In this document: piece by piece, positions 42,188 to 53,775 of the stretch | Layout of the letters: each line of letters begins with the position of its first letter | How positions within the stretch are numbered: the stretch's first letter is position 1 | Assembly: GCF_026712205.1 (NCBI RefSeq) | Contig: NZ_JAPPUW010000011.1 | Location: forward strand, 1-64,000 | Length of the DNA: 64,000 bases | From: Pelomonas aquatica | GTDB taxonomy: Bacteria; Pseudomonadota; Gammaproteobacteria; Burkholderiales; Burkholderiaceae_C | Direction: 5' to 3' | Position numbers and translations under genes: made by a program | Notes under the pieces: generated by a model | Seen by the model: only the letters and a program-made list of their open reading frames with translations | Told to the model about the DNA's origin: nothing | Databases searched by the model: none

Positions 42188-42246
42188 CGCCCGGCCCCGC
42201 CGCCTCATCAATTCAGACGAGGACGCGCGGCGGGCCGCTTCCTAGA

Positions 42247-42268
42247 GTTCGGTCCCGAACGTCCGAAC
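42247..42268. promoter_or_regulatory. Inverted repeat upstream of the peroxidase-P450 gene
   Basis: GTTCGG (42247-42252) and CCGAAC (42255-42260) form a 6-bp inverted repeat, and CCGAAC occurs again at 42263-42268. It lies about 180 bases before the start of the fusion gene in the gap after coaX and may be an operator. A 10-bp palindrome GTACCGGTAC at 42380-42389 is also present. No clear -35/-10 pair was found. Confidence 0.3.
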
Positions 42269-42444
42269 GCTCGACCGCAACCGCAGGCATCGCAGCGCCT
42301 CGACGCGCCGATGCACGGCGGGCCCGGCTTTCGGCGGCCGTTGCAAATGACTACATTCGCCGGGTCGTGGGCCGAACCCGTACCGGTACAGGGCCGCTGC
42401 GGCGCCCCGGCACGGCCGCCGGCCCGCGCAGGACGGGAGGGATC

Positions 42445-45400
42445 GTGGACAAGTTTCCTGACTGGGCCGAAGGCCTGATCGCCGGCACCAGCCCCGGCCA
42501 GCACCCGCATGCGCTGAACCTGGTGCTCAAGCTGGCCGACCCGGCCAGGCTGCCGCTGATGCTGCTGGACGTGGCGACCTCGCAGCCCATCATCCAGCGC
42601 GCGCTGAACGATCTGTCCTTCCTGCACTTCGCCCGCTTCCTGCCCTCCTGGGACGGTTCGGCCCTGGTCGTCGTCACCGAGTTCGACGGCCCGCTGAAGC
42701 CCTATGTGATGGACTTCGTCATCGCGCTGGGCGAGGTGTTCAACAAGCTGCTGTCCTATGTCGAGGAGCCGCCCCCGCTGCCCGTGCAGCAATACCCGGA
42801 CGAGTTCTGGACCTATGTCGAGAAATGGAACCGCGTGCCCTATGCGCCGCGCAGCGGCAACAGCACCGGCAATGTGTTCCCGCCGGATTTCGACTACCCC
42901 GTCTACTCGGCCTACCCGACCCGGACCGTCGTCGACATCGCCGGGCCGCGCGACCCGGCCACCGATGGCCTGCGCCCCGCGCCGGACCGCCGCGCCGCCA
43001 AGGTCCACCTGGCCGACGTGCAGGGGAACATCCTGCGCGGCTTCCATGCCTGGAAGGCCACCCATCTGATGCTGCAGGTGACCGATGCGGCGACGGCGCG
43101 GGTCTGGCTGGCCGGCCTGCCCGTGCAGGACAGCCGGCCTTGGGGCGACACCAAACCCAAGCACGCCCTGCTCAACGTGGCCTTCACCTTTGAGGGCCTG
43201 CAGGCCCTGCTGCCGACGCGCTCGGAGGATCTCGCGCGCTTTCCCCAGGCCTTCCGCGAAGGCCCGGCGCAGCGCGCGGCGGGCAACGGCGACGCCGCCG
43301 ACAGCGCGCCGGCGCTGTGGCGCTTCGGCGGCTCCGTCACGCGGCCTGTGCATGTGCTGCTGTCGCTGTACGGGCTGAAGCCGCCGGCCTCGGCGGACTA
43401 CGCCGCGGACGTCGCGCGGCTGACGGCCGGGGCCGCCGCGAACGGCCTGGCCCTGGTGCACAGCGAGAACGCCCAGGCCCTGGAGGACGACCGCATCTAC
43501 TTCGACTACCGCGATGGCATCACCGACCCGCGCATCGCCGGCCAGCGCCTCCCGGCCGGCCGGCGCCTGTCCATGCAGCCGGCATCCAGCCCGGGCGAGT
43601 TCCTGCTGGGCCCGGGCTACGACAGCATCTATGGCGGCGAGTCCCTGCCCCGCCACATGCCGCCCGACCTCGCTCGCAATGGCTGCTTCGGCGCGCTGCG
43701 GCTGATCGAGCAGGATGTGGCCCGGTTCGAGCAGGTCACCGCCGGGCTGGCGGCGCAATTCGGCGGCCGCCCGAGCGACGCGGCCGCCCGGCTGCTGGGC
43801 CGCTGGCCCGACGGCCAGCCGCTGAGCCAGCATCGCAGCGACCCGGGGCCGCTCCCGCCGGGCATCATGCCGCGCAACGACTTCGACTACGCGCCCAACT
43901 GGGAGTACCCGGGCGAGCCGCTGGACCACGACGGCCGGCGCTGCCCGCTGGACGCCCACATCCGCCGCACCAATGCGCGCTCCCACCGCGCGCCGGGCGT
44001 GCGCCACACGCGCCGGCTGCTGCGCCGCGGCATGCCGGCGCAGTGGAAGGACGGCGAGGCAGACCGCAAGGGGCTGATGGGGCTCTTCCTGTGCGCCGAC
44101 CTGGAACGCCAGTTCGAGTTCATCCAGCGCCAATGGGTGCAGGGCGGCGAAAGCGGCCTTTCGGACCCCATCGCCGGCCTGCGCAGCGGGACGGCGCCCT
44201 TCCGCTGGTCGCCCACCCAGAGCGCCGACATCCCGCCGCTGGTTCGCACGCGGGGCAGCCTCTACCTGTTCTTTCCCGGCATTTCCATGCTGCGCGGCTT
44301 GCCGGCTCTCGACCGCCCCGGCCCCGAACTGCCGCCCGTCGCGACCTGGCCCGAGCCGCAGGGCCTGGAGCGCGTGCTGCGCGTGCGGGCGCAGGCCATC
44401 CGGGGCCTGCCGCCGCGGATCAGCGAGTTCGCGATCGAATGGCTGGTGCGCCATGTGCTGTCCAGCGGATGGGTGGCCGAGAAGCTGAAGGGCCGGGCGC
44501 CGACAGCGCCGCCCGACCTCGGCGACCTGACCACGGCGCGGGCCCACGACCTCCACGCGTTGTCGACGCATTTCATTGCCGACCCCTGCACACGCTACCG
44601 CTGCCTGCGGGCGCGCGGCATCGATTTCTTCTGGGAGCCCTCCCACCAGGCCTTCCTGGCGCTGCGGCGCGCCGAGGTGGAGCGCATCCTGACCGACGTG
44701 GGCGACTTCGTGCAGGCGCCCTCGACGGCCGGGCTGCGCGGCATCATCACGCTGGACGGCGAGGACCACGACCGGGTCCGCCAGGCCTTCCGGGACAGCA
44801 TGGAGGCGCCTTTCGCCGCCGTCTCCGCCAGGCTCAACGCGGCCCTGCAGGAACACTGGGGAAAACTCGGCGAGCTGCCGCAGTTCGACATCGTGCGCGA
44901 CCTCGGCGTCCCGGTGCTGAGCGAGGTCTACTGGCAGTTCTTCGGCCTGCCCGAGGAAGACCGCAAGACCTGCAGCGATCACGCGGCACTGGCCATGCGG
45001 CAGTTCTGCCAGCCGGTGCCCCGCCGCGGCGCGGCGCAACTGGCCGCCGGCAATGCCCTCGCGAGGCTCTGGGGCCATCTGGCCGTGCAACTGGCGCTGG
45101 CCATGCTGTGGGATCTCGCGCCGCTGGGCGGGAGCCCCTATGCCGGCACGCTGCTGGGCGGCATCGCCGCGCGCACGCGCCTGCCGATCCCCGGCCTTGC
45201 CGCGCGGTCGGGCCCGCAGCGGACGCTGGATTTCAAGACCGCCGCGACCTCGCTGCTGCAGTTCGTGCTGGCGGGCCAACTGGCGCCGCAGCTGCTGTTC
45301 AGCTCCGCGACGTACAACTTCCTGGCCCACGAGGCTGCGCCGGGCCTCTCCGTCTGGGCGCATCTGGCGGCGCTGCAGCCGGCCGCCGCCCGCGCCGCGC

Positions 45401-45795
45401 CGCTCGCGACCGCCCTCGACGAGTCGCGCCGCTTCGACCCGCCGGTCACCATCATCCAGCGCTACACGGCGCGCCGGGTCCGCATCGGCGGCGTGACCCT
45501 GCCGCCGGACACGCCGGTGTTCGCCGTCGCCGCCTCGGCCAACCGCGACGGCGGCCCGCATGCGCGGCTGGATGACTTCCTCTGGAACCGCGGGCTCGCC
45601 CCGCCGCATTTCTCGCTGGGCGCCGGCCCCCACCACTGCATAGGCGCGGCGCTTCAGCAGCTCATGCTGCCGCAGTTGCTCGGCGGCATCATGGACAGGG
45701 CACCGGGGATGCGCCTCGTCGACCCGCACGCCGTGCCCGCCTGGATCGACAACATCTACTTCCGCGGCCTGGAGTCGCTGCCCGTGGCGATCTGA
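42445..45795 (+). CDS. Dyp-type peroxidase fused to a cytochrome P450
   Basis: This 1116-residue protein joins two haem enzymes. After an N-terminal region (1-180) comes a Dyp-type peroxidase (about 186-600): VHLADVQGNILRGFHAWKA, the catalytic Asp357 in YFDYRDGITDPRIAG (first Gly of GxxDG replaced by Asp), the proximal His505 in CPLDAHIRRTNAR, Arg527/528 in LLRRGMP, and GLFLCADLERQFEFIQRQW. A linker leads to a P450 (about 700-1116): ExxR at 993-996 (ESRR) and the haem Cys1065 in FSLGAGPHHCIGAAL. The I-helix reads LAGQLAPQ and lacks the usual Asp/Glu-Thr pair. The GTG start has a GGGAGGGA ribosome site. There is no signal peptide. It lies 6 bases before a STAND regulator. The substrate is unknown. 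Confidence 0.88.
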   Translation: MDKFPDWAEGLIAGTSPGQHPHALNLVLKLADPARLPLMLLDVATSQPIIQRALNDLSFLHFARFLPSWDGSALVVVTEFDGPLKPYVMDFVIALGEVFNKLLSYVEEPPPLPVQQYPDEFWTYVEKWNRVPYAPRSGNSTGNVFPPDFDYPVYSAYPTRTVVDIAGPRDPATDGLRPAPDRRAAKVHLADVQGNILRGFHAWKATHLMLQVTDAATARVWLAGLPVQDSRPWGDTKPKHALLNVAFTFEGLQALLPTRSEDLARFPQAFREGPAQRAAGNGDAADSAPALWRFGGSVTRPVHVLLSLYGLKPPASADYAADVARLTAGAAANGLALVHSENAQALEDDRIYFDYRDGITDPRIAGQRLPAGRRLSMQPASSPGEFLLGPGYDSIYGGESLPRHMPPDLARNGCFGALRLIEQDVARFEQVTAGLAAQFGGRPSDAAARLLGRWPDGQPLSQHRSDPGPLPPGIMPRNDFDYAPNWEYPGEPLDHDGRRCPLDAHIRRTNARSHRAPGVRHTRRLLRRGMPAQWKDGEADRKGLMGLFLCADLERQFEFIQRQWVQGGESGLSDPIAGLRSGTAPFRWSPTQSADIPPLVRTRGSLYLFFPGISMLRGLPALDRPGPELPPVATWPEPQGLERVLRVRAQAIRGLPPRISEFAIEWLVRHVLSSGWVAEKLKGRAPTAPPDLGDLTTARAHDLHALSTHFIADPCTRYRCLRARGIDFFWEPSHQAFLALRRAEVERILTDVGDFVQAPSTAGLRGIITLDGEDHDRVRQAFRDSMEAPFAAVSARLNAALQEHWGKLGELPQFDIVRDLGVPVLSEVYWQFFGLPEEDRKTCSDHAALAMRQFCQPVPRRGAAQLAAGNALARLWGHLAVQLALAMLWDLAPLGGSPYAGTLLGGIAARTRLPIPGLAARSGPQRTLDFKTAATSLLQFVLAGQLAPQLLFSSATYNFLAHEAAPGLSVWAHLAALQPAAARAAPLATALDESRRFDPPVTIIQRYTARRVRIGGVTLPPDTPVFAVAASANRDGGPHARLDDFLWNRGLAPPHFSLGAGPHHCIGAALQQLMLPQLLGGIMDRAPGMRLVDPHAVPAWIDNIYFRGLESLPVAI

Positions 45796-45801
45796 GCGCC
45801 C

Positions 45802-48354
45802 ATGAACGCGAACGCCCACGACGCCCCGGCCGCGCTGAAGTACGAGCACTTCGAGATCCACCCGCGCCTGCGCCAAGTATGGGTGCGCGGCAGTGCCGTG
45901 GCGCTGGGCGGGCGCGCCTTCGACCTGCTGCTGCTGCTCGCCCGCCGGCACGAGCGCGTCGTCACCAAGGACGAGATCTTCCAGCAGGTCTGGCCCGGGC
46001 TGGTGGTGGAGGACAACAACCTCAGCGTGCAGATCTCGGCGCTGCGCAAGGCGCTCGGCGCCGACGTCATCAAGACGGTCAGCGGGCGCGGCTACCAGTT
46101 CACCGCGCCGCTGCCGGACGCGGCGGCCGCCGATGCCGGCGAAGCCCCGCCCGGCAACCTGCCGGTGCGCCCGCCCGCGCTGTACGGCCGCGAGGCCGAG
46201 CTCGCGCAGCTGCTGGCCGAGTTCGCGCAGGCCGACTGTGTCACCGTCTGCGGCCTGGCCGGCATCGGCAAGACGACGCTGGCCCAGGTCGCCGCGCGCC
46301 GGCTCTATGGCCGCAAGCGCCATGCCCAGGGCGCCTGGTGCATCGACCTGACCCAGGTGCGCGAGCCCGGGCAGCTCGGCCTGGCCATCTGCCACACCAT
46401 CGGCCTGGAGCCGGGCGACGAGCGCGAGGCCCTGGCCGCCTGCCTGGCCCAGCTGCAGCACCGCGAGCTGCTGCTGGTGCTGGACAACTGCGAGCATGTC
46501 GTCGATGCGGCGGCCGCCTTCGTCGACGCGCTGCTGGCCCGCGCCGAGCGCGTGCAGGTGCTGGCCACCAGCCAGGAGCCGCTGCACGTGCGCGGCGAGC
46601 ATCTGCTGCGCCTGGCCCCGCTGGCCGTGCCGGACTCGGTGGACTGCCCCGACGTCCAGAGCTACGGCGCCGTGCGCATGCTGCTGGAGCGGGTGCGCGC
46701 GGCCATGGGCGGGCACTTCGAGCCCGACGCCGCCGACATCGTCCACCTGGTCGAGATCTGCCGCCAGCTCGACGGCATTCCGCTCGCGCTGGAGTTCGCG
46801 GCCAGCCGCATCCCGCTGCTCGGCCCGGCCGGCGTGCGCAGCCGCCTGCACGACCGCCTGCGCCTGCTCACGGGCGGGCAGCGCAGCGCGCCGCCCCGGC
46901 ACCGCAGCCTGCAGGCCGCGCTCGAATGGAGCCACCAACTGCTCAGCCGGCGCACGCGGCACGTGCTGCACCGGCTGGCGGTCTTCCCCAGCGGCTTCAG
47001 CCTGGAGGGCGCGGCCCTGCTGCTGACGGCCGAGTCGGACTCGGACCTCGTCGAGCACCTGAACCTGCTGGTGGACCGTTCCCTCGTGACCCTGCAGGCC
47101 GAGGGGCGGCGCCGCTACCGGATGCTGGAGACCACGCGCGCCTTCGCGCTGGACTGCCTGGGCCAGGAGCAGGACGGCATCGACTGGCACAGCCGCCTGG
47201 CGCGGGCGATGGCCGCGCTGTGCCTGCTGGGCGCCCGCGAGCGGGACACGGTCTGGCTGCACCAGGAGATGCCCAATATGCGCGCCGCGCTGGCCTGGAG
47301 CCTGGCCCACCCCGGCCACGGCGAGGTCGCGGCCACGATCGCCACCTACACCTCGGTCGTGCTGGGCGCGACCGGCGCCATCGGCGAGGCCATCGACAAC
47401 CTGCTGCGGGTGCAGCACCTGATCTCCGACGAGCTGCCCGAAGCGCTGCGCGCCCGCTACTGGCACTGGCTGGGCCGGCTCGGCGTCGAGGGCCGCCTGC
47501 CGGGCTCGCTGTGCATCGACTACCTGCAGAAGGCCGACGCGATGTTCCAGGACCAGGGCGAGCCCCTGCACCGCCACGGCTGCCAGCGCCACCTGGCCGA
47601 GGCCCAGCTGCTGGCCGGGCGGCTGGACCTGGCCGAAGCCCATCTGCAGACCGCGCGCGCGCTCGAAGGGCCCCGGCCGCGCGCCTCCGACCGCGTGCGC
47701 CGGCTGCGCGTGGAGGTGCTGCTCGCCGCGGCCCGGGGCGACCACCGCATGGCGCTGCTGCACGCGCAGACGGCCCTGCCGCTGGCCGAGGCCCACGAGT
47801 TCGAGCACTACCGCATGCTGCTGATCGCCGACATGGCCTGGAGCCATCTGCAGGTCGGGCATGCCAACGCGGCCGTGGCCAGCTGCCAGGACCTGCTGGT
47901 GCACCTGCAGGGCGCCAACCTCAGGTTCGGCCTGGCCCGGGCGCGCGCGATGACGGGGCTGACGGCGGCCCTGGTCGCCGCCGGCCGCGTCGACGAGGCG
48001 GCCGGCGCCGTCATCCGCACCGCGCAGGCGCTGCGGCAGGAAAACCTGCTGCGCTCGCGCTGCGACATCTTTGCCTGGGTCGCCGCCGCCGCGGGCGCGC
48101 TGCCGGCCGCCGCGCAGTTCCTCGGGGCCGGCGACGAGTTCGCGGCCAGCAGCGGCATGGAGCGCGACCCCATCTCCTGCATGGCCCGCGAGCGCGCGCT
48201 GGCGCTGATCGAGCCCCGGCTCGCGGCCGACGACCTGCAGCACTGGCGCCACCAGGGCGCCATCGCCGACGAGGCCGAGCTGATGGCCCTCGTCCGCGCC
48301 CAGTTCGCGCCGGCGCCCGCCGCGCTCCACGACGCCCCGGAGACCGCCCCATGA
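45802..48354 (+). CDS. STAND-type regulator: winged helix, NTPase and TPR-like repeats
   Basis: The N-terminus (residues 1-105) is an OmpR/PhoB-type winged helix (FDLLLLLARRHERVVTKDEI, EDNNLSVQISALRKALG, KTVSGRGYQFTAP), as in CadC and SARP regulators. An NB-ARC-like ATPase follows with Walker A VCGLAGIGKTTLAQV and Walker B LLLVLDNCEHV. The C-terminal half is a set of helical TPR-like repeats that would bind a ligand or partner. Length 850 aa. It begins 6 bases after the peroxidase-P450 gene, so both are made from one mRNA and it probably senses a related signal. Confidence 0.85.
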   Translation: MNANAHDAPAALKYEHFEIHPRLRQVWVRGSAVALGGRAFDLLLLLARRHERVVTKDEIFQQVWPGLVVEDNNLSVQISALRKALGADVIKTVSGRGYQFTAPLPDAAAADAGEAPPGNLPVRPPALYGREAELAQLLAEFAQADCVTVCGLAGIGKTTLAQVAARRLYGRKRHAQGAWCIDLTQVREPGQLGLAICHTIGLEPGDEREALAACLAQLQHRELLLVLDNCEHVVDAAAAFVDALLARAERVQVLATSQEPLHVRGEHLLRLAPLAVPDSVDCPDVQSYGAVRMLLERVRAAMGGHFEPDAADIVHLVEICRQLDGIPLALEFAASRIPLLGPAGVRSRLHDRLRLLTGGQRSAPPRHRSLQAALEWSHQLLSRRTRHVLHRLAVFPSGFSLEGAALLLTAESDSDLVEHLNLLVDRSLVTLQAEGRRRYRMLETTRAFALDCLGQEQDGIDWHSRLARAMAALCLLGARERDTVWLHQEMPNMRAALAWSLAHPGHGEVAATIATYTSVVLGATGAIGEAIDNLLRVQHLISDELPEALRARYWHWLGRLGVEGRLPGSLCIDYLQKADAMFQDQGEPLHRHGCQRHLAEAQLLAGRLDLAEAHLQTARALEGPRPRASDRVRRLRVEVLLAAARGDHRMALLHAQTALPLAEAHEFEHYRMLLIADMAWSHLQVGHANAAVASCQDLLVHLQGANLRFGLARARAMTGLTAALVAAGRVDEAAGAVIRTAQALRQENLLRSRCDIFAWVAAAAGALPAAAQFLGAGDEFAASSGMERDPISCMARERALALIEPRLAADDLQHWRHQGAIADEAELMALVRAQFAPAPAALHDAPETAP

Positions 48355-48488: not shown

Positions 48489-49157
48489 ATGAGTGCCCTG
48501 GCCACCGCGCCCGCCCTGCCCCGCTTCGACGCGCCGAGCTTCGACGGCAGCGCCGTCCCCGCCGTGCGGCGCACCAGCGCCTGGACCATGCTGGAGCTGC
48601 TGCCCCAGGCCGTGCTCGTCGTGGCCCGCGACCGCATGGTGCTGGTGCGCAACCAGCGCGCCCAGCGCCTGCTCCAGGATCAATGCCTGCAGATCGCCGA
48701 CGGCCGGCTGGCGTCCCTGGGCCAGCTGGGCACGCTGCAGATCGCGCAGATGCTGCGCAATGCCGACGCCAGCGGCGGCTGCGACTGCGGCATCTGGTTC
48801 GAGAAGAACCTGTCCACCGGCTGGCTGCGCGCGCTGGCGACGCCCTGCCCGGAGTTCGCCGACGGGCTGCACGGCCCGCAGGGCACGGTGCTGCTGGTCC
48901 TGCAGATCGACCAGCCGGCGCTGACCCAGTGCGCCCGCATCGACGTGCTGGCGCAGACCTGCCGCCTCAGCCCCACGGAGCGCCATGTGCTGATGCTGCT
49001 GGCCGACGGCATGACGGTCGAGCTCGCGGCCCGGCACCTGTGCCTGCAGCTGTCCACGCTGCGCAGCCATGTGCGCAACCTGCTGGGCAAGACCCAGGCG
49101 CCGTCGCTGATGCAGCTGCTGCGCTGGACCGGCAGCGCACGGACGCTGCTGAACTGA
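48489..49157 (+). CDS. LuxR-family helix-turn-helix regulator with a PAS-like N-terminus
   Basis: The 222-residue protein ends in a LuxR-type helix-turn-helix (CRLSPTERHVLMLLADGM, ELAARHLCLQLSTLRSHVRNLL). The first 130 residues include LELLPQAVLVVARDRMVLVRN, which resembles a PAS sensor domain. A strong AAAGGAG ribosome site precedes the ATG. It lies 134 bases after the STAND regulator and may belong to the same control circuit; the gap contains no obvious terminator. Confidence 0.8.
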   Translation: MSALATAPALPRFDAPSFDGSAVPAVRRTSAWTMLELLPQAVLVVARDRMVLVRNQRAQRLLQDQCLQIADGRLASLGQLGTLQIAQMLRNADASGGCDCGIWFEKNLSTGWLRALATPCPEFADGLHGPQGTVLLVLQIDQPALTQCARIDVLAQTCRLSPTERHVLMLLADGMTVELAARHLCLQLSTLRSHVRNLLGKTQAPSLMQLLRWTGSARTLLN

Positions 49158-49172: not shown

Positions 49173-51902
49173 TCAGCCCGGCGGCGGCCGGCCTTGCTCC
49201 AGCGCCGACCTGACGCGCGCCAGCCACAGGCCGCCGGCCTGCGCGGGCTGGCTTTCGCGCCAGCGCAGCGCCGCCGCCAGCGCCTGCCTGGCGGCCTCGC
49301 GCTCGCCGCGGGCCCGAAGGCTGCGGCCCAGGGCTTCGTCCAGCAGCGCGGCGGCCTCGCCGGTGCCGGCGGGCAACGCGGCGCGCTCGGACTTCAGCGC
49401 CCTCTCGTCCACCGCCTGCGGCGCAGCCAGGCTCAGGGCCAGCCAGGCGTCGGCGCGCAGCAGCCAGTCGGTGTGCGGCGCGCCGCGCAGCAGCGCCTGC
49501 AATGCGTCGCGCGCGGCGGCCGTCTCGCCGCGTGCGGCCCGCCATTCGGCGCGGCGGAGTTCGGCATAGCCCGGCGCCGGCGGGCGCGGCAGGCCTTCGG
49601 CCTGGGTCAGCAGCGCATCGGCCGCGGGGAGGTCCCCCGCCGCCAGCGCACGTTGCGCGCAGCGTTGCCACCAGTTCAGGCGCAGCGAATCCTCGGCCGG
49701 CGTCACGCCGGGCCGGCAATCCGGCTCGTCGGGCGGCCAGCGGCCCAGAACGCCCTGCACCATCAGCTCGCCCAGCCGCAGGCGCTGCTGCTGGCGCTGG
49801 CCGCCGCTGCTGCCCCGGCTGACGCTCCGGCCCACCAGCTCGCGGGCCTCGGCCAGCAGGCGCACGGCGCGGCCCTGGTCGCGTCCCAGCACCAGCAGCC
49901 GCGCCAGCAGCGCGCGGTCGCGCACCTGCCAGGGGTGGCCCTGCGGCCATACGCGGTCCTGGATCGCCAGCGCGTCCTGCTGCCAGGCCAGGGCCTCGTC
50001 CAGCCGGCCCGCGGCCAGCGCGGCGCTGCTGGCCTGGCCCATCAGCTCGGCGGTGTGCCAGTTGTCGCGCCCCAGCCAGCGCAGGTTGAAGGCGACGCCC
50101 TCGCGGGCCGCCGCGAGGGCGTCGTCGGGGCGGCCATCGGCGCGGTACATCTCGGCCAGCAGCGCCAGCGCGTCGTTGGCGAGGCTTTTCGTCTCGGGGT
50201 GCTCGCGCAGCAGCGCGGCGGCGTGCTCGGTGCGCGCCAGGTCTTCGGCCCCCACGCGCCCCCGCGCCCGCCAGCCGTAATAACCCACCAGGGCCTCGCT
50301 GCCGCCCAGCCATTCGGCGTCGTCGAGGCCCGCATCGCGGAAGTCGCGCCAGGCCTGGTGAACCATGTCGTAGGCACAGCGGAAGTCGTCGCGCGCCTCG
50401 CATTGCAGCTGTGCCAGCACGAGCAGCGGCTTGGCCGCCTCGACGCCGTGCTCGCCATGGCTGCGCCGGGCCTGCGCGCGCTGGGTCTGCAGCAGCTGGA
50501 TGGCGGCGGCGCCTTCGCCGAGGCCGTCGAGCATCGGGGCGAGGTCGCGCATCAGCTGATAGCGGGCCTCGGGCGCGTCCTGCAGCGCGGCGGGCAGCTC
50601 CCTGGCCGCCTGGCGCAGCACGTCCTCGACGCGCGCATCGCGGTGCGCGACGTCGGACATTTCGGACTCGTCGTGCACCAGCAGGCGGCGGAAGAAGTCG
50701 TACTGGGCCTCTGCCCGGCGCGCCGAGCGGGCCTGCGCCTGCGCGCTGTGCAGGGCCCAGGCCGCGGCGCCGACCAGGGTCAGCGCCGCCAGCGCGCCGG
50801 CGGCGACCGCGACGTGGTGGCGCCTGAGCCAGCGGCCCGCCACATAGGCCAGCCGCGCGGGGCGGGCCTGCACGGGTTCGCCCCGCAAATGGCGGCGCAG
50901 ATCGTCGGCGAGCGCCTGCGCGCTGGCGTAGCGGGCCTCGGGCTCCAGCGCGGCCGCGCGCAGCAGGATGGCGTCGAGGTCGCCGCGCAGCCCGCGGCCT
51001 GCGTCGCCCGCGGCATTCGACGGCCGGGCGATGCGGCCCTGCAGGATGGCCGCCATCAGGCTGGCGCTGTCGCCGCGCCGGGCCGCGAAGGGGCTGGCGC
51101 CGGCCAGCATCACGAAGCCCAGCAGGCCCAGGCCGTAGACGTCGCAGGCCACGCCGACACGTTCGCCGCGCAGCTGCTCGGGCGCGGCGAACTCCAGCGT
51201 CAGCGGCGACGCGCCCAGCCGCGTCAGGTCGACGCTGCCGTCCAGCAGCCGCGCGATGCCGAAGTCCAGCAGCCGGGGCTGGCCCGCCGCGTCCAGCATC
51301 ACATTGCCGGGCTTGATGTCGCGGTGCACGACGAGGCGGGCGTGCGCGTGCTGCACGGCCTCGGCGAGCCGCGCCAGCACCTCGACGCGCTCGTGCAGCG
51401 TCAGCCGGGCCGCTGCCGCCGGCAGCAGCTCGCCGGCCACGAACTCCATCGCGATCCAGGCCTGGCCGTCGCTGACGCCGGCGTCGTAGAGCCGCGCGAT
51501 GCAGGGGTGGGTCAGCGCGGCCATCACGTCGCGCTCGCGCTCGAAGCGCCGTGCCTGCCCGGCCGACGCGCGGGCCAGCTTCAGCGCGACCTGGCGTTCG
51601 TAGTCGCCCGCCGCGCGCTCGGCCAGCCAGACCTCGGCCATGCCGCCCCGCCCCAGCGGCCGCAGCAGCCGCCAGGGGCCGACGAGGGCGCCCTCGGTCG
51701 CGGCGGCGGCATCGCCCGCCGACAGCTGGGCCGGGGTGTCCAGGAAGCCGGCCTCGTCGGCCTGCCTCAGCCCCTCCCAGAGGCGGCGCAGCCGCGCGGC
51801 CAGCTCGGGATGCTCCCGCGCCAGCGCCCGCAGCCAGCCGTCCCTGGCGGCGGTAGGTTGATCGAGCAGCCGGTCGAGCTGGGCGCCGAGATCCTGCGTC
51901 AC
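49173..51902 (-). CDS. Membrane serine/threonine protein kinase with TPR-like region
   Basis: The N-terminal 70 residues are helical, followed by a kinase domain (about 80-350) with [21 protein letters not shown], the catalytic [11 protein letters not shown] (Asp195), DFGIARLL and the activation/APE segment FAAPEQL. A single membrane helix follows (about 362-383), then a 500-residue tetratricopeptide-like region outside the membrane. Length 909 aa. The GTG start shares GTGA with the hslU stop, so it may be translated by coupling. The large C-terminal part is Ala/Arg-rich and of unknown function. Confidence 0.87.
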
Positions 51903-53212
51903 AGGATGAAGCGCGACAGATCCTCGTTGGCGGCCAGCGCGCCGAGCTTGGCATCGACGGCGGCCGCGTCCAGCACCACGGCCTGGCCGGCATGGCGCGG
52001 CGCGTCGAAGCTGATCTCGTCGAGCAGCCTCTCCATCACCGTCGCGAGGCGCCGCGCGCCGATGTTCTCGGTGCGTTCGTTGACCTCGTAGGCGATCTGC
52101 GCGATGCGCCGCACGGCGTCGGGCTGCAGTTCCAGCATGACGCCCTCGGTGGCCAGCAGGGCCTGGTATTGCTTCACGAGGCTGGCATGGGTGCTGGTCA
52201 GGATGGCCTCGAAATCGGCCACCGACAGCGAGTCCAGCTCGACGCGGATCGGCAGCCGGCCCTGCAGCTCGGGGATCAGGTCGCTGGGCTTGCTGAGGTG
52301 GAAGGCGCCGCTGGCGATGAAGAGGATGTGGTCGGTCCGCACGAGGCCGTACTTGGTGGACACGGTCGTGCCCTCCACCAGCGGCAGCAGGTCGCGCTGC
52401 ACGCCCTGGCGCGACACCTCCGCGCCGCCCTGCTCCTGGCGCGACGCGACCTTGTCGATCTCGTCGATGAAGACGATGCCCATCTCCTGCGCATTGGCCA
52501 GGGCCGCGGCGCGCATCTCTTCCTCGTTGACGAGCCTGGCGGCTTCCTCGTCCACCAGCAGCCGCAGGGCCTCGGCGATCTTCAGCTTGCGGGGCTTCTT
52601 CTGGCCGGCGCCGATCTGGCCGAACAGGCCCTTGAGCTGCTCGGCCATGTCTTCCATGCCAGGCTGGTTGCCGAAGGGCGTCAGCACCTCCAGGCTGGGC
52701 TTGGGCGCGGCGAGGTCGAGCTCGATGTCCTTGTCGTCGAGCTGGCCCTCGCGCAGCTTCTTGCGGAAGTTCTGGCGCGTCGCGTTGTCCGGCTCGGAGC
52801 CCGGCAGCAGCGCGTCCAGGATGCGCTCCTCGGCGGCGTCCTCGGCGCGCGTCTGGCAGCGGCGCAGCGCGGCCTCGCGCTCCTGCTTGACGGCGACCTC
52901 GACGAGGTCGCGCACGATGGAGTCGACGTCCTTGCCGACATAGCCGACCTCGGTGAACTTGGTCGCCTCGACCTTGACGAAGGGCGCGCCGGCCAGCCGC
53001 GCCAGGCGGCGCGCGATCTCGGTCTTGCCGACGCCGGTGGGCCCGATCATCAGGATGTTCTTGGGCGTGATCTCGGCGCGCAGCTTCTCGTCGACCTGCT
53101 GGCGGCGCCAGCGGTTGCGCATCGCGATGGCCACGGCGCGCTTGGCGGCCTGCTGGCCGACGATGTGGCGGTCCAGTTCGGAGACGATCTCCTGCGGGGT
53201 CATCGAACTCAT
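51899..53212 (-). CDS. hslU: ATP-dependent protease ATPase subunit HslU (ClpY)
   Basis: HslU is the AAA+ unfoldase that feeds substrates into HslV. It opens [20 protein letters not shown], has Walker [16 protein letters not shown] (about residues 60-74), the pore motif GYVGKDV, the large I-domain insertion, Walker [12 protein letters not shown], and ends in LSRFIL, the C-terminal peptide that docks into HslV. Length 437 aa is normal. It overlaps hslV by 4 bases (ATGA). Confidence 0.97.
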
Positions 53213-53775
53213 TCGAGCACCTCGAGGGTGTGGTTCTGGTTGGTGTAGATGCAGATCTCGCCGGCGATCTCCAGCGAGCGCTTGACGATGTCGGCCGCAC
53301 TCAGCTCGCTGTGGTTGAGCAGCGCCTTGGCGGCGGCCTGCGCGAAGGGGCCACCGGAGCCGATGGCGACGATGCCCTGCTCGGGCTCCAGCACGTCGCC
53401 GTTGCCGGTGATGATGAGGGAGGCCGAGCGGTCGGCCACGGCCAGCATGGCCTCCAGGCGGCGCAGCACGCGGTCGGTGCGCCAGTCGCGCGTCAGCTCG
53501 ACGGCGGCGCGCACCAGATGGCCCTGGTGCTTCTCCAGCTTGGCCTCGAAGCGCTCGAACAGCGTGAAGGCATCGGCCGTCGCGCCGGCGAAGCCCGCCA
53601 GCACCTGCTCGCGGTAGAGCTTGCGCACCTTGCGCGCGCTGGCCTTGACGATGGTGTTGCCCAGCGTGACCTGGCCGTCGCCGCCGATGGCGACCTGCCA
53701 GCCGGCGGGCGTCTGCCGGCGCACCGAGACGATGGTGGTGCCGTGGTAGACGGCGGAAGAGGAATCAGAGGACAT
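53209..53775 (-). CDS. hslV: ATP-dependent protease proteolytic subunit HslV (ClpQ)
   Basis: HslV is the proteasome-like threonine peptidase of the HslVU complex. The catalytic Thr is in [10 protein letters not shown] and becomes the N-terminus after removal of about 12 residues, a propeptide longer than in many relatives. [21 protein letters not shown] and [14 protein letters not shown] are conserved family blocks. I chose ATG 53775 (188 aa); the frame is open to 53811. It heads the hslVU operon. Confidence 0.96.

Follow-up and report, generated by a model that had tools for sequence, protein, structure and literature searches.

The window analysed here, 64,000 nucleotides of Pelomonas aquatica DNA (contig NZ_JAPPUW010000011.1, positions 1 to 64,000 of the forward strand), carries one gene at 42445-45795 whose predicted product combines two unlike haem enzymes on one polypeptide, a dye-decolorizing (DyP-type) peroxidase and a cytochrome P450 of an unusual kind; comparison with related genomes confirms this fusion. 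The gene is a single open frame of 1116 amino acids (aa) with zero internal stops on the plus strand, and its product is tripartite, with an undescribed domain at the N terminus (Ndom, residues 1-187), the DyP domain (residues 188 to about 640) and the P450 domain (residues about 641 to 1116). The initial annotation of the locus had proposed two haem enzymes in one frame, with His505 (in AHIRR) and Cys1065 (in FSLGAGPHHCIG) as iron ligands, and both residues are found where it placed them. It was right about the fusion but overlooked Ndom, a paralogous fusion that the genome also carries and regulator-type neighbours that are conserved.

The two halves are joined without a break. Third-position GC ranges from 0.88 to 1.00 per block of up to 300 bases from one end of the gene to the other, and the GC content by codon position is as in a coding gene. 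Using the window protein as a query against 399 genomes of the same family, we found same-frame fusions in three other genomes (genomes, contigs and loci are denoted by G, C and L numbers), namely G957 (about 1110 aa), G974 (1050 aa) and G927 (1073 aa), with 35-38% overall identity; the same architecture, which the initial annotation had suggested looking for, therefore recurs. In G825 the two halves are genes overlapping by 4 bases, Ndom-DyP (614 aa) followed by P450 (399 aa). The window fusion, the three other fusions and the G825 split pair are hereafter called family A, which is fused in at least 4 of the 399 genomes (the P. aquatica genome included) and split in at least 1; at most two candidates were scored per genome under strict E limits in these surveys, and the counts are lower bounds. 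That two genes were fused by a sequencing or assembly artefact might be argued from the scores of both window domains, which lie under the Pfam cut-offs, and from the two separate genes in G825, but the same architecture in a single frame in three further genomes excludes a frameshift or an assembly join, and the coding composition holds throughout; the chance of such an artefact is practically nil. Family A was not seen in the 19 other genomes of the same genus, and surveys of the order (399 genomes, E up to 1e-30) and of the phylum (359 genomes, E up to 1e-60) brought up no further family-A fusion. A contig scan with the window protein as the sole query confirmed no relative. About a dozen DyP matches in other genomes of the family survey lie within open frames of about 1000-1370 aa, and some P450 matches in the order survey lie within frames of more than 1000 aa; some in either set may be family B (described below) or other fusions.

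The identity of the first haem domain is supported by both sequence and fold. Residues 188-621 match the Deinococcus radiodurans DyP 8re3 (E 5.5e-33, phmmer against solved structures), and in a predicted model of the window protein, built from a 24-row alignment with identities of 22-26%, the DyP part folds as a DyP with 8re3 as the first match (Foldseek, E 9.1e-20; the model is only partly confident). The similarity covers the whole domain, and the distal Asp and Arg and the proximal His are present (Table 1), so that the catalytic residues are intact. The exception to the distal Asp among 32 aligned DyPs is the orthologue in G974 (L139 7214-10366), which has Glu (GYVEG) and keeps the Arg and the His. 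The GXXDG motif is not intact in the window protein, where Asp replaces the first Gly (DYRDG); the enzyme DyPA of Dictyostelium, which is active, is reported to have the same replacement (PMC8230527). The window domain shares its fold, distal Asp and Arg and proximal His with the D-type DyPs (Deinococcus 8re3, Auricularia and Bjerkandera), whereas the solved D-type enzymes are chains of 440-490 aa and the window DyP is flanked by Ndom and the P450 and has the Gly-to-Asp change.

As to the second haem domain, residues 987-1114 match the P450 4wpz (E 4e-17, phmmer against solved structures), and 4wpz was also the top P450 match, at 2.2e-18, in a comparison that returned 199 distinct chains with E up to 1e-6, of which the best 60 were inspected. 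The motif FxxGxGxxxCxG is matched by FSLGAGPHHCIG, with C1065 as the Cys ligand, and both this Cys motif and the ExxR of helix K are kept in all five family-A P450s. A Pfam search, which the initial annotation had advised, placed neither haem domain of the window protein above its curated cut-off (DyP_N, 13.7 of 27.5 bits; p450, 15.3 of the 22.8 bits of the gathering score), and the NCBIfam model TIGR01413 for DyP gave 55.4 of 100.5 bits; the phmmer matches to solved structures, however, are clear for both domains. The fused orthologues in G927, G974 and G957 likewise score under the DyP_N cut-off, and they pass that for p450 (51.8, 40.0 and 23.1 bits, respectively), as does the split P450 of G825.

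Ndom has no Pfam match in the window protein or in five free-standing homologues, and a search of the PDB with an Ndom profile gave nothing credible (best E 0.25). It recurs as a companion of DyP in several arrangements. It is a separate gene of about 200 aa beside DyP on a Methylorubrum plasmid, on a Bradyrhizobium plasmid and in G091, G419 and G050; it precedes DyP in one chain on a Rhizobium plasmid and is duplicated ahead of DyP in G204; and it is fused behind the P450 in G031, G024, G1011 and G1021. The P450 is also found with these modules in other gene arrangements. Ndom, DyP and P450 are consecutive genes in G050, and in the four last-named genomes, here called family C, a P450-Ndom gene is followed by a DyP gene. 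The family-C operon (L023, L142, L144 and L024) runs from a large ATPase protein through P450-Ndom and DyP to a patatin. The patatin gene is present in three of the four operons (G031, G024 and G1021) and was not found in that of G1011 (L142). On the small mobilizable plasmid pMPPM03 of Methylorubrum populi (L030 1731-7704), genes for a ferredoxin, an FAD-dependent oxidoreductase, a P450, a catalase-family protein, Ndom and DyP follow one another in this order. A catalase-family gene is present in some of the DyP/Ndom loci. The Rhizobium leguminosarum plasmid protein (976 aa, L028 923-7911) lies two genes 3' of a CHAT-domain gene and seems by eye to have an extra diverged Ndom-like stretch.

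The P. aquatica genome has a second, distant Ndom-DyP-P450 fusion, P0002 (G000 contig C1 276835-280374, longest frame 1202 aa), which together with its relatives is called family B. A family-B match was found in 15 of the 19 other genomes of the genus, with 13 complete frames and 2 truncated at the edge of a contig. In a pattern scan of a named-species collection we found 44 family-B loci, mostly from genera of Burkholderiales (including Roseateles, Pelomonas, Paucibacter, Variovorax, Rhizobacter, Xenophilus and Ideonella) or from metagenome-assembled genomes (MAGs), some of whose titles (Methylotenera, Vitreoscilla, Gammaproteobacteria) are uncertain. All 38 genes that are not cut by a contig end (6 are cut) hold the DyP Asp and His motifs and the P450 Cys motif within a single frame, 1155-1699 aa long. 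Among 369 genomes drawn from the class, none but that of P. aquatica had a full-length family-B match (E up to 1e-40). A cyclase-AAA ATPase protein is encoded 3' of the fusion in 38 of the 44 loci, convergent with it in 37 of these 38 and within 300 bases in 25, and the convergent cyclase-ATPase beside P0002 has no other match in the P. aquatica genome at 1e-10. The large ATPase that heads the four family-C operons is related to it; the Pfam cyclase domain was detected in the G031 protein and not found in that of G1011. Family B shares with the window fusion the domain order Ndom-DyP-P450 and an ATPase-containing regulator-type neighbour, but it differs in its separate origin, in a P450 without ExxR and in a neighbour where a nucleotide cyclase takes the place of the DNA-binding domain.

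Phylogenetic analyses indicate that the DyP-P450 fusion appears to have arisen at least twice independently, once in each family. In the DyP tree, family A forms a group of 5 rows (supports 98/97) and joins the G419 Ndom-DyP pair and the split operons of G031, G024, G1011 and G1021 in a group of 10 rows (98/97), while family B is a clade of its own of 15 rows (100/100). Holding all fusions together cost 44.4 log units (approximately unbiased (AU) test, P = 0.0014). In the P450 tree, family A falls among ordinary free-standing P450s (100/99 clade) and family B lies far away; here the same constraint cost 45.0 units (AU test, P = 6.3e-5). The group of all fusions was chosen for testing after the first DyP tree had been seen, and before the family-A relatives were added the AU tests gave P = 0.113 for DyP (one origin not rejected) and P = 0.038 for P450 (narrowly rejected). 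The final DyP tree omits 6 of 38 rows, all family B, and the P450 trees omit 7 of 35 (earlier) and 9 of 41 rows (final), comprising family B and one generic P450 each. The split pair of G825 is sister to the four fusions in the DyP tree (90/82) and lies inside them in the P450 tree (99/96). Since fusion seems to have occurred at least twice, the two enzymes may work as one unit.

The P450 domain departs from the classical pattern at helix I. In the window P450, Leu946-Ala947-Pro948 takes the place of the acid-alcohol pair. The corresponding strings of family A are AGQLAP in the window protein and AGYLSV, GGYLST, GGYLSS and GGYLST in the other four, and all five members have Leu at the position of the acid. 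Family-B domains have GFxPT strings (21 of 21 aligned) and lack ExxR at the aligned position in the same proportion. The P450s of G031, G024, G050, G1011 and G1021 are also without the pair. Altogether the pair is absent in 31 of the 32 DyP-linked P450s examined, the Methylorubrum P450 being the sole one to keep it, and present in 8 of 9 generic P450s of related genomes. In known peroxygenases the acid-alcohol pair is described as replaced by Arg-Pro (PMC5818669). The window P450 resembles the CYP152 peroxygenases (BSbeta, SPalpha, OleT) in that the pair is absent, but CYP152 has Arg-Pro where family A has AGQLAP or (A/G)GYLS and family B has GFxPT, and membership of CYP152 was rejected on this account.

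From these features we tentatively propose that the window protein is a tri-domain enzyme for coupled peroxide-dependent oxidation across two haem sites, with a substrate that is perhaps lipid-like and a design like that of fungal fusions though not homologous to them; we put this somewhat short of an even chance. Both haem sites would act in one pathway with the halves in series, as we infer. The DyP half would be activated by H2O2, and the P450 half would work without the classical reductase/O2 cycle, taking a (possibly organic) peroxide made or left by the DyP half or using H2O2 directly. The single chain would keep the reactive intermediate local, and the neighbouring regulator (helix-turn-helix (HTH)-STAND here, cyclase-ATPase in family B) would probably sense a signal and control expression or output. 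The lipid-like nature of the substrate is the least certain step. A peroxide hand-over between the halves, which the initial annotation had also considered, would be compatible with the kept DyP residues, the lost acid-alcohol pair and the lipase-type genes in some related loci.

These lipase-type genes are found in relatives. In addition to the patatins of family C, a patatin gene lies directly 5' of the family-B fusion in G245, a GDSL-like gene follows the family-B fusion of G210, and two PLD-family genes flank the Ndom-DyP pair of G419 (the best match in the order survey outside the P. aquatica genome). Moreover, two family-B fusions have an added C-terminal GDSL-lipase-like domain, giving four domains per chain (L092 5535-10103, 1522 aa; L094 5460-10154, 1564 aa). 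The extra domain of the Vitreoscilla MAG protein scores above the Pfam GDSL cut-off; that of the Ideonella alba protein has no Pfam match and resembles the Vitreoscilla MAG domain by tblastn. The lipid link rests on relatives and not on the window locus. A wider scheme, in which a lipase-type enzyme (patatin, GDSL-like or PLD) would free a lipid, Ndom-DyP and a reductase-independent P450 would convert it via channelled peroxide, and a STAND-type regulator with HTH or cyclase output would gate this so far undescribed bacterial oxidation system, modular and fused more than once, is doubtful at present. If it were true, the system would be a bacterial counterpart of the eukaryotic oxylipin synthases that was put together from unrelated parts on at least two occasions.

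Several observations weigh against the peroxide-coupled reading or its lipid step. No lipase-type gene was seen to adjoin the window gene or its fused orthologues among the open reading frames listed, which were judged by eye. The GDSL-like gene of G210 is slightly below both Pfam GDSL cut-offs, and with the three patatins, the GDSL-like gene and the two C-terminal extensions as queries, 40 of the 44 family-B loci gave no match to any of them (six of the 44 are cut by a contig end). Loss of the acid-alcohol pair is no proof of peroxide use, because a generic free-standing P450 of the same genus (L110, G010 contig C20; TGMVAP) lacks the pair too; the Arg-Pro substitution of CYP152 is absent in the window P450; and the Methylorubrum locus joins DyP and Ndom to a classical P450 (AGHETT). 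Beyond the DyP core the predicted model is of low quality (mean predicted local distance difference test score, pLDDT, 51.6), and Ndom and the domain packing are not interpretable in it. We know of no DyP peroxidase established as a fatty-acid dioxygenase, and none presented as such turned up in the literature searched.

Three other explanations were weighed. In the first, the fusion would merely fix the stoichiometry of two co-regulated enzymes, a DyP that oxidises or scavenges H2O2 and small phenolics and an ordinary P450 monooxygenase served by redox partners in trans. The grouping of the family-A P450 with ordinary free-standing P450s (100/99), its kept ExxR and the Methylorubrum operon, where a classical P450 (AGHETT) with its own ferredoxin and reductase genes is coupled to DyP and Ndom, would agree with this. 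On the other hand, no ferredoxin or reductase gene was seen by eye beside the window fusion or the fused orthologues among the frames listed, the I-helix acid is changed to Leu in all five family-A members, and the two fusions are of separate origin. We consider this explanation rather unlikely. In the second, DyP would be the sole enzyme and the P450 a binding or sensing domain, for substrate docking or for signal input to the adjacent regulator, with no oxygenase activity. Regulator-type neighbours are indeed conserved in both families, and the family-B P450s lack both ExxR (21 of 21) and the acid-alcohol pair; but every one of the 38 uncut family-B genes and of the five family-A P450s retains the Cys motif, and ExxR is kept in 5 of 5 of the window family. 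We consider this explanation unlikely.

In the third, the system would defend against phage or stress: a sensor of the STAND type, joined in family B by a cyclase, would trigger a lipid-damaging peroxidase-P450-lipase effector. Besides the STAND-type and cyclase neighbours and the patatin and PLD genes in some loci, the family-B neighbour matches the PADLOC PycC cyclase models (4.7e-15), and there is a weak match of the window neighbour to PADLOC mad8 over residues 133-208 (6.8e-4). The cyclase matches are limited to the catalytic domain, however, and no PADLOC model is matched by either fusion (P0001, the window protein, and P0002; E up to 0.01) or by either of the two patatins compared. Family B occurs in 15 of 19 other genomes of the genus, unlike patchy defence genes, and a role in defence thus appears very unlikely.

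To our knowledge, the fusions of a haem peroxidase or dioxygenase with a P450 known so far are fungal and involve an unrelated peroxidase; in the fungal dioxygenase-cytochrome P450 (DOX-CYP) enzymes, the Ppo and linoleate diol synthases, the first domain is an animal-type haem peroxidase. These enzymes, described as common in fungi, are reported to unite a haem dioxygenase with a P450 on one chain and to carry out a dioxygenation and then the isomerisation of the hydroperoxide (PMC11719350). The window fusion resembles them in combining a haem enzyme and a P450 in a single chain, but has DyP as the first haem domain, an extra N-terminal domain and a bacterial host. The likeness is one of analogy and not of membership, because the first part there belongs to another family: in the window protein both sequence and fold identify the first haem domain as DyP, and no other peroxidase family is among the three Pfam matches of the protein (E up to 10). 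The convergence on the fungal design proposed in the initial annotation is supported in this sense, and the fungal enzymes show that such a design is viable.

Bacterial oxylipin systems offer further parallels. Cyanobacterial fusions of catalase with lipoxygenase or with a haem dioxygenase are likewise described as holding two oxylipin enzymes per chain (PMC11719350), but they use other enzyme families, and no lipoxygenase was seen here. The oleate diol synthase of Pseudomonas aeruginosa is reported as a bacterial oxylipin pathway that uses haem proteins (PMC4496055, PMC5155153), but its enzymes are of the di-haem cytochrome c peroxidase type and are encoded by two separate genes. No paper in the literature searched, which mostly excluded subscription journals and preprints, appears to describe an Ndom-DyP-P450 architecture. 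The sequence data would thus point to a haem peroxidase-P450 fusion made from a different peroxidase, in bacteria, and built at least twice. This bacterial DyP version, together with the same modules in variously arranged operons, argues that DyP and P450 chemistry can share one pathway. DyP peroxidases have long been without clear physiological substrates, and the P450 is a concrete partner of theirs that could be tested. The conserved regulator-type neighbours open the system to genetics in environmental bacteria.

The regulator gene that follows the window fusion (Table 1) encodes a protein with three Pfam matches above the cut-off (Trans_reg_C, 60.8 bits; nSTAND1, 31.2; NB-ARC, 24.2). Counterparts that are 37-43% identical over most of their length adjoin the fusions in G957, G974 and G927 and follow the G825 pair, that is, the association holds at 5 of 5 family-A loci. 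The closest other copy in the P. aquatica genome is 30% identical over residues 125-497 only. In G957 a small nucleotide-cyclase gene (L138 6725-7462; Guanylate_cyc, 50.2 bits) lies ahead of the family-A fusion and hints at a connection between family A and the cyclase neighbours of family B.

Table 1. Coordinates of the fusion gene, its domains and key residues, and the adjoining regulator gene in the window
Feature	Position	Strand	Basis or remark
Likely ribosome-binding site, ggagg	42436..42440	+	4 bases ahead of GTG 42445; sequence
Ndom-DyP-P450 fusion gene	42445..45795, stop codon included	+	GTG start; open frame, coding composition, three single-frame orthologues
Ndom, undescribed	42445..43005	+	Homologues by tblastn
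DyP-type peroxidase domain	43006..44364	+	phmmer to 8re3; Foldseek of predicted model
Distal Asp357 codon (DYRDG)	43513..43515	+	Asp in 31/32 aligned DyPs
Distal Arg453 codon (GRW)	43801..43803	+	Arg in 32/32 aligned DyPs
Proximal His505 codon (AHIRR)	43957..43959	+	His in 32/32 aligned DyPs
Cytochrome P450 domain	44365..45792	+	phmmer; groups with free-standing P450s in trees
I-helix AGQLAP, site of (A/G)Gx(D/E)T(T/S) in monooxygenase P450s	45271..45288	+	Alignments
K-helix ExxR, E993-S-R-R996	45421..45432	+	Alignments
Cys1065 codon, P450 haem thiolate ligand	45637..45639	+	Motif FSLGAGPHHCIG
OmpR-type winged helix and STAND/NB-ARC-type ATPase regulator, 850 aa	45802..48354	+	6 bases 3' of fusion; Pfam

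Other neighbouring genes, which were judged by eye where no domain search is cited, are less informative. A LuxR-type gene (48489-49157) weakly resembles a gene near the G825 pair (E 3e-5, single comparison) and was not counted as a conserved neighbour. A long frame on the minus strand (49173-53300) has a Ser/Thr-kinase-like stretch that is 44% identical over 377 aa to a gene near the G825 pair, a resemblance that is unproven as a link because such kinases are common. Opposite the fusion and its neighbour, an antisense open frame of 2040 aa (42208-48330, minus strand) is probably spurious in this high-GC DNA.

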